Source: Thermoleophilaceae bacterium (GTDB lineage: Bacteria > Actinomycetota > Thermoleophilia > Solirubrobacterales > Thermoleophilaceae). From it: a stretch of 64,000 nucleotides of DNA. Both the position numbers and the translations under genes were made by a program. Positions 1,604-12,803 of the stretch are shown here, piece by piece (position 1 is the stretch's first letter; every line of letters starts with the position of its first letter). Location of the stretch: positions 1 through 64,000 of the forward strand of contig DASUWY010000001.1 of the NCBI GenBank assembly GCA_036378175.1. Direction: 5' to 3'. Below the pieces are notes generated by a model that was given only the letters and a program-made list of their open reading frames with translations, made no database searches and was not told the origin of the DNA.

Positions 1604-1651
1604 CCCTCCATGGTAAGGAGGGGGTCATCGGTTCGAGTCCGATAGTCGGCT
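1604..1651 (+). tRNA. tRNA-Thr(GGT) 3' half, probable attachment-site remnant
   Basis: Seen: anticodon stem CCTCC/GGAGG (1605-1609, 1617-1621) around loop ATGGTAA with anticodon GGT at 1612-1614, variable GGGTC, T-arm ATCGG-TTCGAGT-CCGAT (1627-1643), 3' acceptor strand AGTCGGC (1644-1650) and discriminator T1651. No CCA is encoded. The expected 5' acceptor strand GCCGACT and a D-arm are absent from the sequence between the Clp stop and 1604, so this is not a complete tRNA. A fragment running from the anticodon arm to the 3' end is the usual footprint left by tRNA-targeting integrases. Confidence 0.6.
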
Positions 1652-1752
1652 TGGGGTCAGTTCCTGAATCAGTTCCAAGAACTCGTTCGGAGAGCTCGCC
1701 TCCCTCCTCACGAAGGTGCTCAACGCGAAGCCGGCCGGTTCGGCGCAGTCGC
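1650..1752 (+). repeat. Left direct repeat (attL/attR-like)
   Basis: The first 36 bases (1650-1685) are identical to 12715-12750. After an insertion of about 14 bases in this copy, homology resumes (CTCAACGCGA, GCCGGCC, GGCGCAGTCGC) with scattered substitutions to 1752. The core starts at the 3' end of the tRNA-Thr remnant. Confidence 0.8.
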
Positions 1753-1791
1753 TGTTGGGTGCGAGAGAAGTAGTCGGCCCTGAAAAGCCGA

Positions 1792-1823
1792 AAGCCGCCG
1801 TGCCTGATCGGCGCCGGCGGCTT
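1792..1823 (-). terminator. Possible terminator of the transposase-like gene
   Basis: A perfect 9-bp inverted repeat AAGCCGCCG (1792-1800) / CGGCGGCTT (1815-1823) with a 14-base loop lies 43 bases past the end of the minus-strand gene that stops at 1866. On the minus strand the stem is followed by a modestly T-rich TCGGCTTTTC stretch. Confidence 0.4.
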
Positions 1824-1865
1824 CCGGGTACTTCTTCTACTTCTTCTTCTGGGCTACCCGGGGCG

Positions 1866-3596
1866 CTAGAACGGCGCTGGGTCGGGATCCGTGACGGGAG
1901 CCCAGGGTCCTTCACGTGCGAGCTTCACGCGCTCGGCGGCAGCGCCGTAGGGGAGCATCAGGCCGCGCATGCGGCGGGTGCGGATGAGCCGGTCGACGGC
2001 GGTCTCGCCGACGACCTTGCGCGGCCGCGGCTCAGTCATGACGCGGCGGACGTGACCGACGGCGAGCCAACCGCGCTGGAAGCTGATGCGCAGCCAGTCG
2101 ATCGCCATCGAGGCGGCGGCGCGCAGTTGCTGGACCGGTAGGCCGGCTCGCTTTGGGCGGCTGTGCAGCGAGTTGCCGGCGACCTGGTGGCGGTCGCGGT
2201 TGTGGTCGTGCACGGCTTCCTTGTTCTTGTGGATGTGCAACAGCTCGTGGCCGACCTCGTCGAACTTGCTGATCGGGAGCAGCAGTCGCCACTCCTTCGA
2301 GCACGAGATCGACTGCTTGCTGGCGCAGGCTGCGCCGAGGTGGCGGTGGCGGCAGCGGAAGCGGATGCGCGGGTCGCCCGCGCCGGTGATGTAGAAGCCG
2401 AGTCCGCTGCCCTTGACGTCGGTTTCGCCGCCGCAGTGTTTGCAGCGGGGCATGCCGTGCTCGTCGAACTCGTCGCAGCGAAGGTCGACGTAGCTCTTGC
2501 CCGCCGCGGGTGCGCGCTCGGGCGCGAAGGTCATCACGCCGCGCCGGGTGTTGTGCTCGAAGATCGCGCGGAAGGCGAGCCCGCGGTCGACCGTGATCGA
2601 GACCGGCTCGGTCTCGATCGTGTTGACGATCTTGCGGTGGAGCTCGGGGTACTCGGTGTGCTCGTTGCGGTCGGCTCGGAATTGGTGGGTAGCGACGGGC
2701 AGCTCCGTGTAGTCGTCGATCGCGGGCATCGAGGTGCCGCCGAACCAGAAGCGCTTCGAGCGCTTGCGGTGTCCGTAGAAGCGTGCGCCCGCGGTCTTGT
2801 CGCGCGAACGGTAGAGGTGCCCGTCCTGGATCCAGTAGCTGTAGTTCTCGACGTCCCAGCCGTGGCGGGAGGGGATCTCGTCGGGCACCCGGCGCAGACC
2901 GTTGGTCGGCACATCCGGGATGGCGTCCTCGGGCTTCGCGGCGTCGTCGTGGCGTTGCGCGTTGATCGTCTCGTCGAAGGCCTTGCGCAGCACCCTCGGG
3001 TGGTGGCCCCGCAGCTCTCGGCAGCGCTGCTTGTCGGGGCAGCAGTGCACGAGCGCGGCGTGAGTCTGGTAGCCGGTGCCGTCGACGTGCAGGTGGCGCG
3101 CGACGCGCTTGTCCTTGGCCATCGCGTTGCGGATCACCTTCGCCGCGAGCTCCTCGAACGCGGACACGTAGCGCTGCTGCTCAAGTCGGCAGAAGTGGTG
3201 GTGCACGGTCGAGTAGGGGACCGGACCGTCGAAGCCGGCTTCGGCCCACAGCGCGCTGTTTGCTTCGATCGACGTGTACCACGGCTGGATGTCGGGCGTG
3301 TCGGCGAGCATGAAAGCGATGTAGAGCAGCGCCCAAGAGCCCGGGCGCGGCCTGCGCCCGCGGCCGCAGTAGGTCGGCCGGGTGCGCTCATCGAGCTCGC
3401 CCACCCAGTGGGGGAACTGCTTCAGCAGCCGTAGGAAGCGGACGGCCTCCTTCAGATGCGGGTCGCGCGCGAAACGGGTCGCGTCGGGCAGCGCGTAGGC
3501 GGGCTGGGAGCGCGGGATCCGCTTCACGCCGAACCCCGGCACGCGGCCGCCGGCGGTCGCGGGCGGCTTGCGCTTGGTCCTGGGCTTCCGTGCCAT
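1866..3596 (-). CDS. DDE transposase-like protein, 576 aa
   Basis: Probable RNase-H-fold transposase or a domesticated relative. Candidate acidic residues lie in HLHVDGTGYQ, SITVDRGLAFRAIF and the C-terminal KNKEAVHDHNRDRHQVAGNS block, followed by RPKRAGLPVQQLRAAASMAIDWL, an arrangement seen in IS-encoded DDE enzymes. An inserted CKHCGGE...FRCRHRHLGAAC segment looks zinc binding. The lysine/arginine-rich N-terminus (MARKPRTKRK) would suit DNA binding. The gene is full length with no frameshift. Terminal inverted repeats were not found in the sequence on either side, so it is not clearly part of a complete insertion sequence. A LexA-type box lies 79 bases upstream. Family assignment is from motifs only. 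Confidence 0.65.
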   Translation of the reverse strand: MARKPRTKRKPPATAGGRVPGFGVKRIPRSQPAYALPDATRFARDPHLKEAVRFLRLLKQFPHWVGELDERTRPTYCGRGRRPRPGSWALLYIAFMLADTPDIQPWYTSIEANSALWAEAGFDGPVPYSTVHHHFCRLEQQRYVSAFEELAAKVIRNAMAKDKRVARHLHVDGTGYQTHAALVHCCPDKQRCRELRGHHPRVLRKAFDETINAQRHDDAAKPEDAIPDVPTNGLRRVPDEIPSRHGWDVENYSYWIQDGHLYRSRDKTAGARFYGHRKRSKRFWFGGTSMPAIDDYTELPVATHQFRADRNEHTEYPELHRKIVNTIETEPVSITVDRGLAFRAIFEHNTRRGVMTFAPERAPAAGKSYVDLRCDEFDEHGMPRCKHCGGETDVKGSGLGFYITGAGDPRIRFRCRHRHLGAACASKQSISCSKEWRLLLPISKFDEVGHELLHIHKNKEAVHDHNRDRHQVAGNSLHSRPKRAGLPVQQLRAAASMAIDWLRISFQRGWLAVGHVRRVMTEPRPRKVVGETAVDRLIRTRRMRGLMLPYGAAAERVKLAREGPWAPVTDPDPAPF

Positions 3597-3674
3597 GCCG
3601 GGAGAGTGCTGTCTGCACTGATCCCGGTCGCAAGCACAGCCATCGTCGGCACGATGCCAGTCTACTACGGATTA

Positions 3675-3688
3675 CGAACGTATGTTTG
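3675..3688 (-). promoter_or_regulatory. Putative LexA (SOS) box
   Basis: CGAACGTATGTTTG matches the actinobacterial LexA consensus CGAACRNRYGTTYG at every defined position. It sits in the 116-bp gap upstream of the transposase-like gene (start 3596) and just past the end of the XRE gene, so it would control the transposase-like gene. Confidence 0.6.
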
Positions 3689-3712
3689 TCCCCCAAATAG
3701 GGTAGAAGCCCG

Positions 3713-4123
3713 TCAGCCCGATGAGCGCCGCCGACGGCGCCTCGCACGCTCCGCGAGCAACTTCCCGAGCGCCGCCTGCTCCGCGTCGCGACCGCCCCAT
3801 TCGGCCGATTGCCCGACCTCCGACCACGGCGCCGTGTGCCAGAGCCCGTCGCGCCGCGGTGGCTTGGCTCGGCGTTCGTTCAGCGGGAGCCACTCGCGCC
3901 AGTCGTCGTCGACGAGCTCCTCCCAGTCGATCCCGAGCGCGATCCCGGCGTTCACGAGCCAGCGCAGCGGCGGGTTCTGCGTCTGCCCGCGCTCAAGCGC
4001 CCGGTAGGCAGTCAGGGAGATCCCGATCGCCTCGGCCAGATCGGCCTGCGTCACCTCACGGAAGACCCGCGCGACCGCCAGCCGCGTCTCCTGTCTCGAC
4101 TGCTCGTCACGACGCGCCGGCAT
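3713..4123 (-). CDS. XRE-family HTH transcriptional regulator, 136 aa
   Basis: Helix-turn-helix of the Cro/C1 type at roughly residues 17-60: TQADLAEAIGISLTAYRALERGQTQ is the canonical fold signature, followed by LRWLVNAGIALGIDWEEL. The remaining half (about residues 75-136) is a basic, tryptophan-containing tail of unknown role ending in an Arg run. It is divergent from the RAMA-domain gene at 4271, with a 147-bp shared intergenic region that contains an inverted repeat, so it may regulate itself and that neighbour. Confidence 0.85.
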   Translation of the reverse strand: MPARRDEQSRQETRLAVARVFREVTQADLAEAIGISLTAYRALERGQTQNPPLRWLVNAGIALGIDWEELVDDDWREWLPLNERRAKPPRRDGLWHTAPWSEVGQSAEWGGRDAEQAALGKLLAERARRRRRRSSG

Positions 4124-4153
4124 CGCGCGAGCGTAACGGTCAGGCCGCCCGGC

Positions 4154-4188
4154 GGCTGGCCGCCTTTCACCCTCGGCTCAGGCCAGCC
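4154..4188. promoter_or_regulatory. Inverted repeat in divergent promoter region
   Basis: Perfect 8-bp arms GGCTGGCC (4154-4161) and GGCCAGCC (4181-4188) separated by 19 bases lie between the XRE gene and the RAMA-domain gene. A candidate operator for the XRE protein; no binding evidence. Confidence 0.3.
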
Positions 4189-4270
4189 GCGCGCCGGTCG
4201 ATCTCACGGCCATGAACACGTTGACGATGGCCATGGCCGCGCGATCCCGGTCCGTGCCTACGGTCGCTCG

Positions 4271-5926
4271 ATGACAGCGACCGCGCCCGCGCCGCGCAGG
4301 CGCTACAGCCTCGACAGTCTGCTCGACGTGCTCGGGGCGGTCGCTCGTGTGGCCGACCCGGGCGATCCCGCCTCGGTCTCGACGCGCGCCTACAACGCGG
4401 CGATCGCGGGCTCCCCGTATCCCGACGCACCGACCGCGAACGCGACGCTGATGCGCTTCAATCGCAAGCGGCCGCTGCGGCTCGCCTGGCGGGAGATCGT
4501 GGAGCTGGCGCTGCGCGAGCCGGACAAGCGCACACCGCTGATCACGGCCGCCACGCGAGAGGAGGAGGCGCCCTGGCTCGACGAGCGGCACGTCTTCTTC
4601 GCGCTCAACCGCGTCGCTCGGGCGGAAGAGGTCGGCGAGCTCAGTCCGGCCGTCTACGCGCAGGCCCGCGAGCGCCTACTTGCACGCGAGCGCCGCAACG
4701 GGCGAGGGGAGATCGCTGAGCTGCTGCCGACCGTTGGGCAGGTCGAGCGGATCTGCGGCGACTGGCAGGGCGCGCTGAAGGTCGCCGGCCTGGCGGTCCC
4801 GGCGAAGCGGGCGCCCTCGCGGCGGACCACGCTGTTCGCGGCCGACAGCGTCGGCTGTGCGGAGGCGGCAGCGATCTTCGCTGCCGTCAACGACCGTTTC
4901 CCCTCCTACAGGACACTCGCGCTGTTCGCGCGCGAATGCGGCTTCCAGCTCGCCGACAAGAAACACGGCGGTTCCTGGGCCGGGCAGCTCAAGACCGCCG
5001 GAGCGCTGCTCGCAGACGCGGGGCTGCCCGTCCCGGAGGCGCACCCGCGAAGCGCCGGGCGGCGACGGCGGCCGGACTTTCAGGTGCCTGTCGAGGGAGT
5101 GCCCGGCGCGCCCAAGCCGTCGTGGCGGCCGCCCGCCAGCGAGATCACGCGCGAGCGGGCGATCGAGGCGCTGCGGGCGTTCGACCGCGAGCAGCCTGCC
5201 AGCGCCAAGCGCGGTGTGCGCGAATTCCAGGCCTGGCAGCGCGGCGGCGAATGGCCCGGCCTGTCGACCATCCAGCGCGTCGGGCGCTTCTCCGAACTGA
5301 AGGCGGAGGCGATCAAGCTCAACCGCGAACAAGGGAAGACGCAGCACGTGCAGCAGCAAGAACAACAACAACAACAGCAGCAAGAGGAGGAGGTGCGGCG
5401 AGATCGCCAGCGCGACGATGATCATCACCACGATCACGCCGATCACGATCGCGCCGATGCCGTCGATCACGATCACGAGCGGGCCGCCGAGCTCGACCAT
5501 GATGATCATTACCCGGCGAGGACGTTCGAGATCGGCCCTGCGCTCCGCCGCGCCGCGGCCGCACCAACCCGCACAGTCAGCACAGGGCCGCCCGCTCGCC
5601 CCTACCGTGGGCCGCGGCCCTGGGTGAGCGATCTCGCCGAGGTTGGGCTGCTCGACTCCGACGAGACGCTTGTCGCCACGCACGAGGGGCAGCGCTACAC
5701 CGCCACCTTCGACACCGACGCGGTGATCACGGTCGCCGGGCTCGGGACCGCGCTGACGCTTTCGGAGGCGCGTGCGCTAGTGCGGGGCAGTCGAACGGAC
5801 GGCGGCGGCTGGTCCTACTGGAAGGTCGAGCGCCACGGCGAGCTCGTGCCGCTCAGCCGGTTGCGCGAGCAGTGGCGTGAGCTGCGCACCTACAGCGGCT
5901 GGACTCCGCGCGCCCCGCGGCGCTAG
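4271..5926 (+). CDS. Four-repeat HEAR-like protein with Gln and His/Asp tracts and C-terminal RAMA domain
   Basis: 551 residues from ATG 4271; the open frame extends upstream, but into sequence antisense to the XRE gene. About four helical repeats (residues 12-85, 100-172, 195-250, 293-352) resemble homing-endonuclease-associated repeats, e.g. ITRERAIEALRAF...WPGLSTIQRVGRFSELK. Then come a glutamine run (about 361-372) with a glutamate run, and a His/Asp tract (about 382-415, DDDHHHDHADHD). The C-terminus (about 450-545: LAEVGLLDSDETLVATHEGQRYTATF...WSYWKVER.GELVPLSRLREQW) matches the RAMA domain pattern, which in known cases accompanies restriction and modification proteins and is thought to read DNA modification. 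No nuclease or methylase catalytic motif is visible. Convergent with the next gene, overlapping 4 bp. Confidence 0.65.
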   Translation: MTATAPAPRRRYSLDSLLDVLGAVARVADPGDPASVSTRAYNAAIAGSPYPDAPTANATLMRFNRKRPLRLAWREIVELALREPDKRTPLITAATREEEAPWLDERHVFFALNRVARAEEVGELSPAVYAQARERLLARERRNGRGEIAELLPTVGQVERICGDWQGALKVAGLAVPAKRAPSRRTTLFAADSVGCAEAAAIFAAVNDRFPSYRTLALFARECGFQLADKKHGGSWAGQLKTAGALLADAGLPVPEAHPRSAGRRRRPDFQVPVEGVPGAPKPSWRPPASEITRERAIEALRAFDREQPASAKRGVREFQAWQRGGEWPGLSTIQRVGRFSELKAEAIKLNREQGKTQHVQQQEQQQQQQQEEEVRRDRQRDDDHHHDHADHDRADAVDHDHERAAELDHDDHYPARTFEIGPALRRAAAAPTRTVSTGPPARPYRGPRPWVSDLAEVGLLDSDETLVATHEGQRYTATFDTDAVITVAGLGTALTLSEARALVRGSRTDGGGWSYWKVERHGELVPLSRLREQWRELRTYSGWTPRAPRR

Positions 5927-7338
5927 CGGGCGAGCAGGTAAGCGACGAACGCTGCCGGCAGCGCGCGGGCGCCGTTGACTTCCTGCACCACGGCGCGCGT
6001 GGCGAGCACCCCGCCGTTGAACATCGTGCGCATCGTCTGAGATTCCCGGGCGAGCTTGGTGTCCGAGTACTTGCCCTCAAAGGCGACCGGGCTGAGCGAG
6101 CGGCCGCAGAAATCGACCTCGGCGCTGGTGCTCGTCCTGGCGTACATGACGTGGGTGAAGTCCGCGTAGTGCTCGGGATCGCCGGCCGCGACCTGCCGCA
6201 GCAGGGCGGCACCGAGCTGCTGCTCGGAGATCTTCGAGGTGTCGGGCTCGGGCAGGTGATCGGCTCGCAGGTGGGCCATGCGGGCGAGCAGCGGGTCGGT
6301 GAAATAGACCTTGGCGCGGGCGCTGAGGTTCGGCATCCAGTGATCGCCGAGCTGGTGGCAGGGCCACGCGAGGTAGGACTCGATCAGATTCTGGATCCTG
6401 CGCTCGGCGGTGTGGTGGCTGCCGACGCCGATCTCGGTGGCGACCGCGGACACGTTGACCGGACTGGTCAGGTCCTTCGAGAGCTTCAGCATCAGGTGGA
6501 GGCTCTGGGTGGAGGTGAAGTTGGCGCTGGCGAGCGCGTCGCCGTGGATCACATCCCAGAGGCCGTTGGCGAACACCTGACTGACCTCGCCGCCGTGCAC
6601 GTAGTCGCTGACCGCGCGTGGGAAGCCGCCGACGCGACAGTAGACCTCCCACAATGTGACCAGGTCATCCAGCCACGGCTGCAACTCGTAGGCCGCCTCC
6701 TCTGCTTCGCGGCCGAGGAAGTCGGCCGGCCTGATCGGCGGCGGGTCGGGCAGGCCCGAGAGGCCGGTCGCGGCAACAAACGACCGGAACGACATCGGCA
6801 TCAGTAGCCGGTCCGAATCCGCAGCGCGCCCACGTCGATGCGCGAGCTCCTTCCGCGCCTCCTCCAGATCGCGGGCCGAGGAGCCGGTCAGGACCACGCA
6901 GTCCTCCCCGAGTCCGGTGTTGTCGCGCAACCACTTGATCGCCGTGAACCACTCCGGCACCGCCGTGACCTCGTCCAGGAACCAGTAGCGGGGCTCGGCG
7001 ACCTGACGGGTGAGCTGGTCGCGGCCGACGCGGACGAGCCGGCGCAGATCAGCCGCAGTCAGACCATCGCAGGCGAAGTGCAGGATCCGCCGGCTGTCGA
7101 CTCCGGCGCTGAGCAGGCGCACGACCGCACGCTTGATCTCAACGCTCTTGCCGACACGGCGTGGTCCCCGCAACACGTACAGACCATCGGGGACGATGTC
7201 GTGCAGCGGATCCGGCTCGTACTGGAGGGGCGCGTCGCGAAGGCGCCGCAGGTCCGGATCGTCAAGCTCCCAGCCCTGCGGAGTACGCCACCAGCGGTTG
7301 CCGGCGGTCATCATGCGGCTTAGTTCGGCCTCGTTCAC
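5923..7338 (-). CDS. AAA ATPase with C-terminal DUF4143/PD-(D/E)XK-like domain
   Basis: 471 residues from GTG 7338; ATG at 7314 is an alternative start. Walker A is GPRRVGKS, Walker B is RYWFLDEVTAVPEW, and LTGSSARDL fits sensor 1, giving an AAA_14-type ATPase in roughly the first 230 residues. A winged-helix-like middle (SPVNVSAVATEIGVGSHHTAERRIQNL) precedes a DUF4143-type end with SAEVDFCGRSLSPVAFEGKY, where the spaced D and E-x-K fit a PD-(D/E)XK nuclease core. Members of this group are often viewed as mobile or conflict-linked. The promoter region holds the iterated palindromes at 7344-7487. Longer readings of the frame upstream run antisense to the gene at 7651 and were not used. Confidence 0.8.
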   Translation of the reverse strand: MNEAELSRMMTAGNRWWRTPQGWELDDPDLRRLRDAPLQYEPDPLHDIVPDGLYVLRGPRRVGKSVEIKRAVVRLLSAGVDSRRILHFACDGLTAADLRRLVRVGRDQLTRQVAEPRYWFLDEVTAVPEWFTAIKWLRDNTGLGEDCVVLTGSSARDLEEARKELAHRRGRAADSDRLLMPMSFRSFVAATGLSGLPDPPPIRPADFLGREAEEAAYELQPWLDDLVTLWEVYCRVGGFPRAVSDYVHGGEVSQVFANGLWDVIHGDALASANFTSTQSLHLMLKLSKDLTSPVNVSAVATEIGVGSHHTAERRIQNLIESYLAWPCHQLGDHWMPNLSARAKVYFTDPLLARMAHLRADHLPEPDTSKISEQQLGAALLRQVAAGDPEHYADFTHVMYARTSTSAEVDFCGRSLSPVAFEGKYSDTKLARESQTMRTMFNGGVLATRAVVQEVNGARALPAAFVAYLLAR

Positions 7339-7343
7339 TCGGG

Positions 7344-7487
7344 AAAGTATACTTTTTCGGCTCCCAGCGGCCAAAAAAGTATCGTTTTCTGGCTGTTCGC
7401 GGCCGACAATCCTCGTTTTGGGCCGTAACGGCCGAAAAACTATAGTTTTCTGGTCGGCCACTGCCGATAATGAATACTTTTCCCTGT
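7344..7487. repeat. Iteron-like array of AT-rich palindromes, about 31-bp period
   Basis: Five sites with centres near 7349, 7381, 7412, 7442 and 7473. The clearest are the perfect palindromes AAAGTATACTTT (7344-7355) and AAAACTATAGTTTT (7436-7449) and the near-palindrome AAAAGTATCGTTTT (7375-7388); the third and fifth are degenerate. Spacers also share GC-rich GGCC motifs. The 31-bp step is three helical turns, so all sites would face the same side of the DNA. The array is AT-rich against a GC-rich background and fills the gap between the divergent ATPase and sigma-like genes. Confidence 0.7.
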
Positions 7488-7610
7488 GGCGTCGCTTTCG
7501 TGCTCGTCGGGGGCGGACGCTCGCCGCTCGGAACGGCGAGCTCCCGCGCTCGGACCCGCGCAAAAGTGGCGCGTTAGCCCTAGGAGACGGGGCTGCTCTG
7601 TCTGGTGAGA

Positions 7611-7629
7611 GGACCGGAACGGCCGGTCC
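7611..7629 (+). promoter_or_regulatory. Hairpin in the leader of the sigma-like gene
   Basis: GGACCGG (7611-7617) pairs perfectly with CCGGTCC (7623-7629) across five bases, ending 9 bases before the ribosome site GAAGGAG of the gene at 7651. Function unknown. Confidence 0.3.
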
Positions 7630-7650
7630 GGACGCTAGAAGGAGTGCTTG

Positions 7651-8751
7651 ATGAAGACGAAGTGGAGCGCCGACTGGGACGAGCGTGTCGCTCGCCGCCG
7701 CTGGGAGCAGTCCAGTGACCCTTACCTGAACGACCGCCAAGACGACCGGGTGCCCTATCGCACGCCGGCGTTCGAGCCGCACGACGCCGCCACGAAGGTG
7801 CTGATCCGGGAGTACACGGACATGGCGCGGCTGCCGTACGGCGAGCTGATCGTGGAGCTGCTCGACGAGTGGCGCTGGCTCGACGCGATGGCGCCGCCGG
7901 AGCAGAAGCAGCGCTTCCTTGAGCCGCTGATCGCGGCCATCCGCAAGGACCCGCACAGCCACACCGCGAAGCTCGTGTTCCTGCTGATCGTCTGCGAGCC
8001 GGTGCGCCGCAGCGTCAGCCGCGCCTTCGTCAACGCACGCGGCAGCCTCGACCGGCCGCCCGCTCCCGCGGCGACCTGGCACCGCCGCTCCGAAGCGCGC
8101 ATGCTGCGCGAGATCGAGCAGCAGGCGCTGTTCGACGTCACCCGCGCCGCGACGCTTGAGGCGCTGTACCGCTACCCCGTCCCGGCCCCACGCGCTTTCT
8201 TCCCCTGGCTGCGCGAGGCGATCGCGCACCGCACGCTCAACCATCTACACGGCGAGCTGCCCGAGATCGAGACGACCGCCGGCACGGCAGCCGAGGCCGT
8301 CGCGCTGCAGAACTACCTGGCCGGCTTCGAGAACGCGGCCGCGCCCGCGATGCGAGAAGAAGGCGGCTTCAAGGCCTGGCGAGCGCGCGTCGGGCTGCGC
8401 AGCGTGTTCGAGATCAGCGACAGCTACTACGAGAACAGCATGATCCGAACGATCTGCCAGGACGCGATCGGGCGGCTGCCGCGCCGCCAGCGCGAGTTCG
8501 TCGAGAGCTACTTCTACGCCGAGCTCCCCGTCGAGCAGATCGCCGCGCAGCGGGGCGTCAGCACCAGCACGATCTACAACACCAAGACCCAGGCGCAGGA
8601 CAACCTGCGCGAGGACGACTACTTCTTCTTCGCGCTCCACAACCTCGGCCTCGTGCGCGATCGTGCACGCGCCGCCGAGATCGAGCGGCGCTATCCGGAC
8701 GGGCGCCTCCTCGACGGCCGGCGGATCGTCGCGATCAGCGACGCCGCGTAG
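7651..8751 (+). CDS. Sigma-70-region-4-like HTH protein, 366 aa
   Basis: ATG 7651 follows GAAGGAG at 7638-7644; TTG 7648 is a possible alternative. Residues about 270-315 (IGRLPRRQREFVESYFYAELPVEQIAAQRGVSTSTIYNTKTQAQDNL) form a sigma-70 region 4/LuxR-like helix-turn-helix. The first 250 residues are helical and not recognised; no canonical region 2 (-10 recognition) motif was seen, so a true promoter-selecting sigma factor is uncertain. It heads a same-strand run with the membrane peptide, the DUF5677-like gene and two unknown genes, and is divergent from the nuclease-ATPase across the palindrome array, making it a candidate regulator of the island. Confidence 0.65.
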   Translation: MKTKWSADWDERVARRRWEQSSDPYLNDRQDDRVPYRTPAFEPHDAATKVLIREYTDMARLPYGELIVELLDEWRWLDAMAPPEQKQRFLEPLIAAIRKDPHSHTAKLVFLLIVCEPVRRSVSRAFVNARGSLDRPPAPAATWHRRSEARMLREIEQQALFDVTRAATLEALYRYPVPAPRAFFPWLREAIAHRTLNHLHGELPEIETTAGTAAEAVALQNYLAGFENAAAPAMREEGGFKAWRARVGLRSVFEISDSYYENSMIRTICQDAIGRLPRRQREFVESYFYAELPVEQIAAQRGVSTSTIYNTKTQAQDNLREDDYFFFALHNLGLVRDRARAAEIERRYPDGRLLDGRRIVAISDAA

Positions 8752-8759
8752 GAGGGGCT

Positions 8760-8864
8760 GTGGACCTCGGCACCGCCGCCGTGCTGATCGGCATCCTCAA
8801 CGGCGTCGCCTCGCTCGCGCTCGCGCTCGGCAAGCTCGCCGACCGCTACCGCCAAAGGCGCTAG
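8760..8864 (+). CDS. 34-residue single-span membrane peptide
   Basis: GTG start 5 bases after a strong GGAGG (from 8751), 8 bases past the stop of the sigma-like gene and 7 bases before the next gene. The product starts MDLGTAAVLIGILNGVASLA, one hydrophobic helix, and ends with a basic tail (ADRYRQRR). Tight packing and a good ribosome site support expression. The shape is that of a small membrane-active or anchoring peptide; a toxin role is only a guess. Confidence 0.55.
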   Translation: MDLGTAAVLIGILNGVASLALALGKLADRYRQRR

Positions 8865-8871
8865 GCCTCGG

Positions 8872-9666
8872 ATGGAACTCTGGGATCCCGCGACGATCGC
8901 CCAGATCACGGCCGCCCGCAAGCAGGCCCGGGCGCTCGGCGAGCTCACGCGCCGCTTCCTGCCGGCGACGGTCGAGAGTGGTAACCGCCACGGTGACTGG
9001 CCCGTCACCGGCTACGCGATGATCGCCCGCGCGAGCGGCACGCTCGAATCCGTGATGTCGCTCTTCCCGCGGCGCCGGAACGCCGACGCCGCGGTGCTCG
9101 CCCGCGCGCTTTACGAGGAGGTCGTCACCTTCGCCTGGGTCGCAATCGACCCCGAGGAAAACGCCCGCGCGTGGGTGCGCTGGGACCGCCGCCAGAGGCT
9201 GAAGGCGGACAACGACGTGCGCTCGGTCGGCGCAGAGCCGCTGTTGTACGAAGACACGCGCGAGGACTTCAAGCGCCAGCTCGCCGCCGGCGACGCGATG
9301 CCGGACAGCCTCGCGCGCCGCGCAGAGCACGCCGATCAGCACTGGGCCCAGCAGCTCGACGCGATCGAGCCCGACCCGGCCAGCCCCCGGAGCTTCCGTG
9401 GCATGTACCGCTACGTCTACCGCGCGCAATCACAGTTCGCGCATGCAGCCCCGCACTCGATCGAGTCGTTCGTGCACAACAGCCCACAGCCGGGCCACCA
9501 GGACGTGATCCTGAGCGAGGGCGATCCCAGCACGCCGATGGCGTTCACGCTCTCTCCGGCGCTTTACGCGCTCGCGCTTCAAGTCGCCGAACCAACACTT
9601 TCACTCGACGGCATCACGCCCGCGCTCGAAACGATCTTCACCCGCTACCCGCACGAGCAGGGCTGA
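8872..9666 (+). CDS. DUF5677-like helical protein, 264 aa
   Basis: The central block DAAVLARALYEEVVTFAWVAIDPEENARAWVRWDRRQRLK resembles DUF5677-type proteins, which are all-helical and of unknown activity. A later YRYVYRAQSQFAHAAPHS segment carries conserved-looking histidines. There is no signal peptide or membrane segment. It follows the small membrane peptide by 7 bases and probably shares its transcript. The domain call rests on pattern memory. Confidence 0.5.
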   Translation: MELWDPATIAQITAARKQARALGELTRRFLPATVESGNRHGDWPVTGYAMIARASGTLESVMSLFPRRRNADAAVLARALYEEVVTFAWVAIDPEENARAWVRWDRRQRLKADNDVRSVGAEPLLYEDTREDFKRQLAAGDAMPDSLARRAEHADQHWAQQLDAIEPDPASPRSFRGMYRYVYRAQSQFAHAAPHSIESFVHNSPQPGHQDVILSEGDPSTPMAFTLSPALYALALQVAEPTLSLDGITPALETIFTRYPHEQG

Positions 9667-9764
9667 GCACACGGCACCAGCGCGACGGGTGAGGTCGCGA
9701 GCCGGCTCCACATCGCTTTCTGGCGCACGTTGCCGGATGCGAGGGCGCATGGGAGGGTGGCTGC

Positions 9765-10388
9765 GTGACCGGCAGAGACACCCCGCGGCGTCGCGAGGCA
9801 GGCGTGCCCCCGCCGCCGCCGCCGCCGACAGGGCTGCGGTTGCTGCACTTCCCAGTGCCGCTGGCGCGCGAGCTGCGTTCCGCCGCCGGGCGCTACCACC
9901 GGTCGCTGTGGTGGCGGGCACGACGCTGGCGCTCGTTCGGACTGTCCACCGTGCGACGGGCATGGGCTCGGACCGATCCGCACCACATCAGGCGCACGGC
10001 CGCGGCGTTCACGCCGCTGGTCGCCCGATCGGCGACACTGCCGCCGCCTCCGCCCGGGACGGCCGTGACGCTGAGGGGCGAGCTGGGTCCCGCGCTCCTG
10101 GTCTGGAGCGCTCTCCAGCTCGACGGGCGCGATCTCGACTATGCGCTGATCGCTGCGCTGAACATCAAGCCGCGCACCGAGCCGTTCGTCGCCGAGATCA
10201 CGGTGCGGGTCGCGCCTGGTCGCATGAGTCGCAGCCAGCGCGCCGTCGAGCTTGCCGACCAGGTCGTAGCTGCCCCAGCCGCGAGGCGCGAGCTCGAACG
10301 GTTGTGCCGCCAGGCAGGTGTCCCTGCCGAGATCCTGCTCGAAGAGGCAGCGGCCCGGGCGCGTGCCAAAACGAGCGAGGACGTCTGA
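9765..10388 (+). CDS. Unrecognised protein with polyproline stretches, 207 aa
   Basis: GTG 9765 follows GGGAGGG at good spacing. The N-terminus has a proline run (VPPPPPPPTGLRLL) and another at about residue 93. A basic Arg/Trp-rich region (YHRSLWWRARRWRSF) and a C-terminal helical region (RSQRAVELADQVVAAPAARRELERLCRQAGVPAEILLEEAAARARAK) are visible. No family recognised. Co-directional with the genes on either side. Confidence 0.55.
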   Translation: MTGRDTPRRREAGVPPPPPPPTGLRLLHFPVPLARELRSAAGRYHRSLWWRARRWRSFGLSTVRRAWARTDPHHIRRTAAAFTPLVARSATLPPPPPGTAVTLRGELGPALLVWSALQLDGRDLDYALIAALNIKPRTEPFVAEITVRVAPGRMSRSQRAVELADQVVAAPAARRELERLCRQAGVPAEILLEEAAARARAKTSEDV

Positions 10389-10424
10389 GACAGCCGCATC
10401 CCGGTCGCGTCCTACGGTCGAGGC

Positions 10425-10706
10425 GTGAGTTCGCGACGATGGGTCCCGGTCCAGCTTCCGCGCCAGACCTGGGAGGAGCTTCGTGATCTGGTGATCAAGC
10501 CGGCGGAGCGAGAAGCGCTCCGTGCGGGATCCGATTACGCCGAGCTGAACTGGCTGCGCGACGCGTGGAGGGTGGTGGAGTTCGACGGCGACCTGGTGAC
10601 GATCAGGCTTGACCGTGAGCTGCTGGACGTGTTGGCGCGCGAGGTTCGCGCGCGAGCCCTCCGCAGGTTGCTCGACACCGTTCGCGAACTGGAGGCGCAG
10701 CTCTAG
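10425..10706 (+). CDS. Unrecognised small protein, 93 aa
   Basis: GTG start at 10425, 36 bases after the previous gene. Acidic-basic mixed protein with WVPVQLPRQTWEELRDLVIKP near the start and a C-terminal amphipathic helix (REVRARALRRLLDTVRELEAQL). No catalytic motif, signal or membrane segment. Codon use fits the neighbours. Last gene of the island's plus-strand run; a weak inverted repeat (CCGCTTT/AAAGCGG, about 10729-10758) follows and could end transcription. Confidence 0.5.
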   Translation: MSSRRWVPVQLPRQTWEELRDLVIKPAEREALRAGSDYAELNWLRDAWRVVEFDGDLVTIRLDRELLDVLAREVRARALRRLLDTVRELEAQL

Positions 10707-10835
10707 CCAGGGATCACCTCGCGCCGGCCGCTTTCCATACAGCGCTTCTTCTAAAGCGGTAGCCGCACCGTGCGCGAGCACTGACTGCTCCGTCTCGCGC
10801 GATACGGAATTGGTGGTCCGACGGGCCGTGCAGGG

Positions 10836-12527
10836 TCAGCGCTCGCCGTCCCAGCGAGCCATCGCGTCATCAAGGGTGGGGATCCAGCCGGTGATGAGCG
10901 CGGGTACGCGGTCATCGACGAGAGCGTCGGTGAGGATGGCGACCATGGTGCGGCCCATCGGCGCCGAAATCGCGCCTTTGGTGTCGAGCGCCACCTGCGC
11001 GGCTCGGTCGCACCAGCGGATGTCGTGGAGGTAGTTGGGCGTGTAGGCGCCGGAGGCGCCTGCGGCGTCGCTGTCAGGGTGCTCGATGCCGCGGTCGTCG
11101 ACGTTGAGCAGCCGAGGGGCCACGCGGGCAATGGCTGCGGCGGCCTGGGCCGGGACTGGCGACAGAACGGTGAAGCACCCCGCCCCCGGCCCATCAAAGT
11201 CTGCGTCGCTGTCGAGGGGTACTGGGCCCAGGACGTCTTGAGCGACGGTAACCAGGTCGGCTGGGTCGGCGTCGCGGTGCCGGCTTGCTATGTCCTGCAG
11301 CAACGCCCAGGCTTGCTCGTGATCGTCGGCGGCGGCGGCGTCGCGGACGATCGCGAGCGCGCCGGCTAGAGAACCGGCATCAACGGTTCGTTGGTAGCGA
11401 GCTTGGCGCTCGGCGGCGGCGGCGAGGATGGTGCGTTCGGCCTCTGCGGCGATCTCGGCAATCGCGTCGGTGCCACGCTGGTTGGTGTCGTTAGTCGCAT
11501 CGCCACCGTTGAAGGGTGTCTCGGGCGATCGTGATCTGGACGTTGTGTCCGTGCCTGCCGTGGACATCGAAACATCAGTCCGGTCGTCAGGCTCGACCGC
11601 GGGGACTTCGAGCATGAGGAGGACCAGGGCGCTGTCGCGCGCGAGGGCCGTGCGGACGGCGGGGTCGCCGTCGCTGGGGCCGAGCAGAATGAGGATGTGG
11701 TCGAGGAGAGCCATCCTCGCCCGCTGGCCCAGCGCGTCGGACAGCAGGGCCGCGACTTTCGACGCCTGCAGCGTCGCCCGGTCGCCAGGCGGATTAGTGG
11801 CGACGAAGCCCAGCATTGTCTTGCGGACCGATTCCTCGCCGGGGCCGTAGATCCCCGTTAGGTCGTGGACGGCGAACGCGTGAGCGCTGATGTGCGCGCT
11901 CGAATGCGGGACGGCGGTCGCGATCTGCGCGTCGAGGGTCCTTGCGCGGGCTTCGTGCACTGCGGGCGGACGGGGACGGCCCGCTGCGTTGAGTTCGGCG
12001 AGGAAGGCGCCGGCGTTGTCGATCTTAAAGGCGGGCTGCACCAGCCAAGCAGCATCGGCGTGCCTACCAGCCTCCACGGCGGCTTCGAGCTCGGGCACAG
12101 CGCCCTCGTACAGCAGCGTCTTCATCTCACCGTCGGAGGCCGCCATCAGGGCCGGGGCGAGTTGCCCACCCCACGCCGCCGATCGCTGCGCGAGCCGGGC
12201 AACAAACCCCGAGTCCGGACTCCAGTCGACATTGACATTCCCGCGGGAAATGACCTCCCGTGCTGCCCAAGCGGCCCCAGCGACCTCGGCCAGCGAAGTC
12301 GCCCGGGCGGCGGACGGCGCGCCGATCGCTTCGGGCGCGCTGGAGGTCAGCGAAGTGGCCGCGTTGACGAGGACCTTTAGGCATGCGTTGTCGCGTTCCC
12401 CGCGGCGCCGAATGCCCATCAGCATCCCGGCAACGCGGTTGTAGCTCTCGACGTAGGCTCGATGCCAATCGGCTAAGTCAACGCGGTCGGTCACCCACGC
12501 AACCCTAGGACACCCCCCCTTTCGCAT
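10836..12527 (-). CDS. Unrecognised 563-aa protein
   Basis: Open across its length from ATG 12527; GTG 12494 (VTDRVDLADWHRAYVESYNR) is an equally plausible start, and neither has a clear ribosome site. Alanine-rich and mostly helical: a first region of about 300 residues, a Ser/Thr/Asp linker (about 315-350, STAGTDTTSRSRSPETPFNGGDATNDTNQ), and a C-terminal region with AAEAERTILAAAAERQARYQRT and YLHDIRWCDRAAQVALDTKGA. No membrane segment or signal peptide. No family recognised. It is the last gene of the island before the right repeat. Confidence 0.6.
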   Translation of the reverse strand: MRKGGCPRVAWVTDRVDLADWHRAYVESYNRVAGMLMGIRRRGERDNACLKVLVNAATSLTSSAPEAIGAPSAARATSLAEVAGAAWAAREVISRGNVNVDWSPDSGFVARLAQRSAAWGGQLAPALMAASDGEMKTLLYEGAVPELEAAVEAGRHADAAWLVQPAFKIDNAGAFLAELNAAGRPRPPAVHEARARTLDAQIATAVPHSSAHISAHAFAVHDLTGIYGPGEESVRKTMLGFVATNPPGDRATLQASKVAALLSDALGQRARMALLDHILILLGPSDGDPAVRTALARDSALVLLMLEVPAVEPDDRTDVSMSTAGTDTTSRSRSPETPFNGGDATNDTNQRGTDAIAEIAAEAERTILAAAAERQARYQRTVDAGSLAGALAIVRDAAAADDHEQAWALLQDIASRHRDADPADLVTVAQDVLGPVPLDSDADFDGPGAGCFTVLSPVPAQAAAAIARVAPRLLNVDDRGIEHPDSDAAGASGAYTPNYLHDIRWCDRAAQVALDTKGAISAPMGRTMVAILTDALVDDRVPALITGWIPTLDDAMARWDGER

Positions 12528-12615
12528 GAAGTGGGCGCCGCTTGTTGCCTAACAGCAACACCCTGCCGCCTCCGGCAGCGACTCCCGCTTTCCGTGCAAG
12601 CAGAAGGGGACCGTT

Positions 12616-12633
12616 GTTCGACAGCGATCGAAC
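12616..12633. promoter_or_regulatory. Inverted repeat near island right end
   Basis: GTTCGA (12616-12621) and TCGAAC (12628-12633) around six bases, in the non-coding stretch upstream of the 563-aa gene. Could be an operator or an integrase arm site; no direct support. The 12528-12858 stretch holds this, smaller hairpins and the right repeat, but no gene. Confidence 0.25.
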
Positions 12634-12698
12634 CTTAACGCGTGGGGATACGGGTGGCCGATCGCGGCCGGATCCTGCTAAGGAAAGCGCCACCCGAC

Positions 12699-12748
12699 GT
12701 TCTTGGAACTAGCCCTTGGGGTCAGTTCCTGAATCAGTTCCAAGAACT
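12699..12748. repeat. 12-bp inverted repeat overlapping the right island repeat
   Basis: GTTCTTGGAACT (12699-12710) is the exact reverse complement of AGTTCCAAGAAC (12737-12748), with 26 bases between. The right arm lies inside the 36-bp direct-repeat core; the left arm lies outside it and is not present next to the left copy. Could be a recombination-site structure or a terminator. Confidence 0.5.
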
Positions 12749-12803
12749 CGCCCCCTCCTCACCAAGGTGCTCAACGCGAGGCCGGCCAGTCCGGCGCAGT
12801 CGC
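12715..12803 (+). repeat. Right direct repeat (attL/attR-like)
   Basis: 36 bases identical to 1650-1685, then a shorter but recognisable continuation of the left repeat to 12803, with substitutions and lacking about 14 bases. Confidence 0.8.

Follow-up and report, generated by a model that had tools for sequence, protein, structure and literature searches.

A HEAR-repeat protein as the probable partner of an IS1182-like transposase in a transposon family at tRNA and tmRNA 3′ ends of Thermoleophilia

The first 64,000 nucleotides of contig DASUWY010000001.1 from a Thermoleophilaceae bacterium (assembly GCA_036378175.1), referred to here as the window, contain an element of ~11 kb (positions 1650-12714) that lies beside a 3′ fragment of a tRNA-Thr gene (Table 1). 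Starting from the tRNA fragment, the element encodes a DDE transposase of the IS1182/IS5 type, an XRE-type regulator, a protein built of homing-endonuclease-associated repeats (HEAR) and ending in a RAMA domain, and a set of cargo genes. The initial annotation of the HEAR/RAMA gene had ascribed to its product a DNA-binding role within an island, a view with which the predicted domains and the 11-kb element agree; it missed the transposase partner and the nature of the whole unit, which appears to be a transposon targeting a tRNA end. Comparison with related loci, genomes and contigs (numbered L, G and C, respectively) makes it reasonably probable that the HEAR protein completes the two-protein core of a family of DDE transposons that target the 3′ ends of tRNA and transfer-messenger RNA (tmRNA) genes in Thermoleophilia.

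Four helical repeats make up the N-terminal 350 residues of the 551-residue HEAR protein. The window protein on its own gives no significant match to the repeat family PF18780 (HEAR/HNH_repeat) in Pfam (12 bits, cut-off 26), and the four repeats proposed initially are borne out by its relatives and by structure prediction. The equivalent of repeat 2 in the relative at L067 passes the same cut-off (34.1 bits, E value of 3.6e-8), hhalign comparison of repeat columns from 15 relatives links the pairs 1-2, 1-4, 2-4 and 3-4 (probability of 36-60%, versus at most 4.7% for shuffled columns), and the AlphaFold2 model (mean predicted local distance difference test score, pLDDT, of 67.6) contains four helical units. 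Repeats 2 and 4 weakly resemble helix-turn-helix (HTH) domains (VIA-align Z scores of 3-4.4), with weak TetR-HTH-like rows from which no named fold is claimed. The C-terminal domain matches PF18755 (RAMA) below the curated Pfam cut-off (residues 440-537, E value of 1.2e-6, 28.8 bits versus 35.2); scores of 33.7 and 39.1 bits are reached by relatives sharing this C-terminus, of which the higher-scoring one (G018) exceeds the cut-off. Top Foldseek matches for this domain are CcrM (6pbd) and MPND (7ydw/7ydt), which also occupy the top rows in VIA-align (Z score of 7.3 over 76 residues for the MPND RAMA domain and 5.9 for CcrM), confirming that the modelled domain has the fold of solved RAMA domains, as had been proposed. 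The lack of a catalytic core also stands, no hidden nuclease or other catalytic domain being found by Pfam, NCBIfam or PADLOC. The Gln run and the His/Asp-rich tract are present as described; because they are absent from all relatives examined, the functional weight placed on them is unsupported, and they look like a lineage-specific linker. The RAMA domain, which in the window protein also matches the PADLOC candidate PDC-S14, was found in only three members, which are scattered in the trees, and the member at L068/L092 carries a winged helix in its place, suggesting that the C-terminus is a swappable module.

The conserved partner of the HEAR gene is the transposase. A transposase homologue is present in 18 of the 19 HEAR loci with usable flanks, within the same element-sized neighbourhood (at L143 the two genes are 10 kb apart), and a HEAR gene is found in all 12 loci that have an intact transposase and upstream sequence, counting that of L131, in which a single repeat is recognisable. 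Residues D172, D337 and E460 are invariant in an alignment of nine transposase members, all of which match IS1182 models (best E value of 2.3e-17); six match DDE_Tnp_1 and one shows a weak match to the rve model (E value of 0.14). The window transposase itself scores 16.6 bits with NCBIfam NF033551 (IS1182), far below the 270-bit family cut-off. The transposase profile found no match among solved structures, and the AlphaFold2 model of the protein (mean pLDDT of 43.8) was not used. Distances between transposases correlate with those between HEAR proteins (Mantel r of 0.80, and of 0.46 with p = 0.005 without near-duplicates), and the two trees share groupings. Locus comparison shows a core pair, consisting of the predicted IS1182-like DDE transposase and the multi-repeat HEAR protein, with the XRE gene as an optional addition, and a fixed orientation of the elements, whose transposase end adjoins the RNA gene. 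Partial or broken transposase copies without a HEAR gene are also seen at tRNA/tmRNA genes of several genomes (L133-L142) and are probably decayed elements.

In 15 of 26 loci, ARAGORN detects a tRNA or tmRNA gene whose 3′ end faces that of the transposase gene (binomial p of ~6e-20 versus random positions within these tRNA-rich loci). This count rises to 17 with two tmRNAs recognised by Rfam and to 20 with three 3′ gene fragments, namely the tRNA-Thr of the window, a tmRNA at L069 (23.7 bits) and a tRNA-like fragment at L056 that was read by eye; Rfam reports no tRNA above threshold in the window because only the 3′ fragment is present there. The transposase stop codon mostly lies 190-280 bp from the RNA gene end, the majority of distances being 188-228 bp, and the RNA genes targeted comprise tRNAs for Lys, Trp, Asn, Phe, Ala, His, Cys, Met and Glu as well as tmRNA. 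Near-identical elements occupy different RNA genes. The element of L055 is found at tRNA-Asn and that of L056 beside a tRNA-Trp-like fragment; their transposases are 97% and their HEAR proteins 93% identical, and their cargo differs. The sister elements L064 and L065 have tRNA-Ala and tmRNA as targets. The features recognised are therefore likely to be common to all of these genes, for example the T-arm with the acceptor end. Elsewhere in the window genome, a second tRNA-Thr 3′ fragment (L082, 1500-1550; G000:C55) stands beside a tyrosine-recombinase-like reading frame, which suggests that a classical island, too, uses tRNA-Thr as its site in this genome.

Left ends of the elements start a few bases from the RNA gene, mostly with two spaced repeats, and right ends carry an inverted copy. 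The insert of ~13.1 kb in G018 carries CCCCGCTC on both flanks, and the tRNA-Trp locus of G004 provides the corresponding empty site, with a single copy of this sequence and continuous flanks. Seven further loci have 5-7 bp common to both borders (CCCACTC at L050, CCATCGC at L058, TCCACTG at L138, CCACTC at L066, CAGCTA at L055, CTGGT at L056 and CACTC(GG) at L057; single-locus p values of 0.002-0.19). The tRNA-Lys sites of G182 and G168 were considered as empty sites for the element of G076; the right flank did not align. Judged from genome sequences, transposition of the elements is well supported by their ends, the ~7-bp target duplications and the one empty site. For the window element the duplication CTTGGGG is proposed by analogy, because a tandem end hides it: a second left end follows directly on the right end, which suggests the remnant of a tandem sister insertion that has since been lost. 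A 36-bp direct repeat in the window was considered as an att site of a tyrosine recombinase and rejected, since it runs on into this second left end and does not occur in the intact tRNA-Thr copy. At L066 (8460-9488; G446), an open reading frame (ORF) resembling a tyrosine recombinase overlaps the element's proposed right end. This element is located at tmRNA, and the arrangement would fit insertion of the transposon between the tmRNA and the integrase of an older island.

Table 1. Features of the element in the window and of its borders.
Feature	Position	Strand	Basis
3′ fragment of tRNA-Thr(GGT), apparent target; intact copy at G000:C73	1605..1652	+	
Proposed left copy of target duplication CTTGGGG	1650..1656	+	
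Left transposon end, two spaced repeats (CAGTTCCTGAAT, CAGTTCCAAGAAC)	1657..1685	+	
DDE transposase (IS1182/IS5-like), conserved partner; invariant D172, D337, E460 and zinc-ribbon-like CxxC	1866..3596	-	alignment, profile searches
XRE-type HTH regulator, divergent from HEAR gene; in a subset of elements	3713..4123	-	Pfam, locus comparison
HEAR-repeat/RAMA protein, 551 aa	4271..5926	+	ORF, Pfam, AlphaFold2, hhalign, VIA-align
HEAR-type repeat 1 (aa 11-84)	4301..4522	+	relatives' alignment, hhalign; AlphaFold2 helices 14-81
HEAR-type repeat 2 (aa 100-177)	4568..4801	+	alignment, hhalign; L067 equivalent passes PF18780 cut-off
HEAR-type repeat 3 (aa 190-262), most divergent	4838..5056	+	hhalign, matches repeat 4 only
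HEAR-type repeat 4 (aa 286-350), HTH-like three-helix unit	5126..5320	+	AlphaFold2, hhalign, VIA-align
Gln run (aa 361-371), 10 Q of 11; last repeat helix extended in model	5351..5383	+	sequence, AlphaFold2
His/Asp-rich tract (aa 382-415), low-confidence, probably disordered linker	5414..5515	+	sequence, AlphaFold2
RAMA domain (aa 440-537)	5588..5881	+	Pfam, Foldseek, VIA-align
AAA_14/DUF4143 ATPase, PADLOC candidate PDC-S01, start approximate	5923..7290	-	Pfam, PADLOC
Protein with sigma-70 region 4	7648..8751	+	Pfam
DUF5677 protein	8872..9666	+	Pfam
Cargo protein, no family match	9765..10388	+	
Cargo protein, no family match	10836..12527	-	
Right transposon end, inverted copy of inner left repeat (GTTCTTGGAACT)	12699..12714	-	
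Second left end in tandem, 36/36 bp identical then ~92%; begins with right CTTGGGG copy	12715..12803	+	

Within such an element, the HEAR protein is most likely the DNA-binding partner of the transposase and the target selector. The more specific proposal, which we consider evenly balanced, is that the elements form a distinct class of transposons targeted by a protein, in which the HEAR protein reads the universal T-arm/acceptor end as an address and thereby directs the IS1182-like transposase, its C-terminal DNA-reading domains (RAMA or winged helix) being swappable and the cargo serving defence. The transposase would cut and join the element ends, and the HEAR protein, binding DNA by its tandem HTH-like repeats, would recognise together with the transposase the T-arm/acceptor end common to tRNA and tmRNA genes. 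Insertion would thus be placed at the RNA gene end, where the left target copy would keep the RNA gene whole, and the HEAR protein would play a role like that of TnsD in Tn7. Additional contacts to DNA would come from add-on C-terminal modules, RAMA in the window member, where it might read methylated DNA, and the winged helix in another, with the tracts as a linker.

Several points weigh against this assignment. The HTH-like matches of the repeats are weak, target reading may belong to the transposase rather than to the HEAR protein, and adjacency to the XRE gene would also suit a regulatory role. An RNA gene was recognised in none of L051, L052, L060, L136, L141 and L142 (6 of the 26 transposase loci), L066 is a HEAR locus at tmRNA without a transposase, and the target of the window element is itself only a tRNA fragment. 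Border repeats are short at individual loci, and the target duplication of the window is confounded by the tandem second end.

Foremost among the alternatives, though unlikely in our estimation, is that the HEAR protein serves as a core factor in transposition by binding the transposon ends and that the transposase picks the target. The two spaced repeats at left ends and their inverted copy at right ends would suit a multi-repeat DNA-binding protein, and the co-evolution of the two proteins fits this arrangement as well. However, end binding in the IS4/IS5/IS1182 group is normally done by the transposase itself, and a separate protein for this task would be unusual. It is more doubtful still that the HEAR protein acts as a regulator, transcriptional or anti-restriction, which is paired with the divergent XRE gene and controls expression of the transposase or the cargo. 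Its DNA-binding domains, the lack of catalysis and the XRE gene that adjoins the HEAR gene in several elements are in line with such a function, but elements lacking XRE (L055, L056, L058, L064, L065 and L130) retain the HEAR gene, and at L130 it is co-oriented with the transposase and overlaps the transposase start, a better fit to a transposition factor.

The initial annotation had pictured a protein that reads modified DNA and recruits the ATPase or another effector for defence, with metal chelated by the tracts. The RAMA domain, the PDC-S14 match and the defence genes nearby speak for this reading, which we nevertheless regard as very improbable: most relatives have no RAMA domain and all lack the tracts, and the ATPase, rather than being the obvious partner, is cargo in some elements only, whereas the transposase is conserved. 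In one structural study, moreover, 6mA left the DNA binding of MPND, the best-studied RAMA protein, unchanged (PMC9963953). That the islands are ordinary tyrosine-recombinase islands with the transposase and HEAR genes as passengers is hardly credible. In its favour, tRNA/tmRNA targets are typical of tyrosine recombinases and a tRNA-Thr fragment neighbours one in the same genome (L082). Against it, the duplications are ~7 bp instead of long att cores, the ends are inverted, an empty site exists, and the transposase is the RNA-facing boundary gene with its stop mostly 190-280 bp from the RNA gene end.

The target-selecting HEAR protein favoured here invites comparison with known systems. Like Tn7 and Tn7-like elements, HEAR elements bear cargo, including defence genes (PMC8649781), insert directionally at conserved RNA or housekeeping gene ends and, as proposed here, possess a dedicated DNA-binding partner. 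They differ from Tn7 in having a single IS1182-like DDE transposase and a duplication of ~7 bp; TnsA/B/C or TniQ were not found among their conserved genes, and no TniQ match was obtained on the proteins scanned. CRISPR-associated transposons (CAST) of types I-D and I-B2, which are Tn7-like with TnsD/TniQ selectors, home to tRNA genes (PMC10293859), but HEAR elements insert at the tRNA end itself, versus 30-33 nt downstream for Tn7-like elements. The eukaryotic Dada elements are likewise DDE transposons in tRNA and small RNA genes, with target duplications of 6-7 bp and tandem insertions (PMC3706591); unlike HEAR elements, they have a transposase of an unrelated group (MuDR/hAT/IS256-like), insert inside the gene at family-specific targets and lack a HEAR partner. 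Similarity to the IS1182/IS5 group extends to all nine transposase members, whereas the scores far below the family cut-off, the two-gene core with cargo, approximately one copy per genome and the tRNA/tmRNA target set the elements apart. The HEAR protein shares its repeat type with PF18780 proteins but has no HNH or homing nuclease domain, consists mainly of its four repeats and is partnered by a transposase; its C-terminal fold is that of RAMA proteins (the CcrM C-terminus, MPND), here fused to HEAR repeats in the window protein. By analogy, HEAR elements may work like Tn7/TnsD homing and like Dada, sharing the machinery of neither by the tests made. No description of HEAR-transposase elements or of tRNA targeting by IS1182-like transposases was found in the searchable literature, outside which most subscription papers and preprints lie, so that absence is not proven; as far as could be searched, the family is previously undescribed.

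Relatives of the repeat region are spread across the host class. Of 232 genomes of the order, 20 contain relatives of the window protein, as do 27 of the 399 of the class, some matching the RAMA part only; the relatives include Conexibacter sp. DBS9H8, Miltoncostaea oceani and metagenome assemblies of Thermoleophilia or Actinomycetota. The transposase is nearly absent outside the class and mostly present in one copy per genome, and the transposon family is apparently limited to Thermoleophilia. Five loci were recovered by a contig profile search with a four-row transposase alignment. Viral contigs contain no relative of the HEAR protein or the transposase and phage records no HEAR relative; among plasmids there is one relative, from Miltoncostaea oceani. 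The HEAR relative at L143 (12339-13517; G015) is split between two frames. It has an HTH, and its C-terminus, judged by eye, might be nuclease-like; Pfam gives no nuclease match.

Comparison of the elements shows that their cargo is variable and, by predicted function, often directed to anti-phage defence. Type I restriction-modification (G018), AbiE (G178) and CD-NTase (G446) genes lie within defined borders, and a complete CBASS-like operon (SAVED/PD-DExK effector, JAB, E1-E2 and cyclase) stands beside the HEAR gene at L069 (7842-12360; G393:C16), neighbouring an element whose right end was not found. A TniB-like AAA match comes only from the cargo ATPase of L131. Cargo of the element at tmRNA in L057 (~3209-11966; G224) looks metabolic, not defensive, and by eye comprises YceI-like, dehydrogenase, NmrA-like and luciferase-like proteins. 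The sigma-70 region 4 protein in the window has 367 residues and an unusually long N-terminus.

If the proposed reading is true, these elements would represent a simple natural form of safe-site targeting outside the Tn7 group, acting at many tRNAs and at tmRNA and leaving essential RNA genes unharmed. It would give nuclease-less HEAR-repeat proteins a concrete role, and would account for how these bacteria gather defence systems at tRNA/tmRNA genes with no tyrosine recombinase involved.
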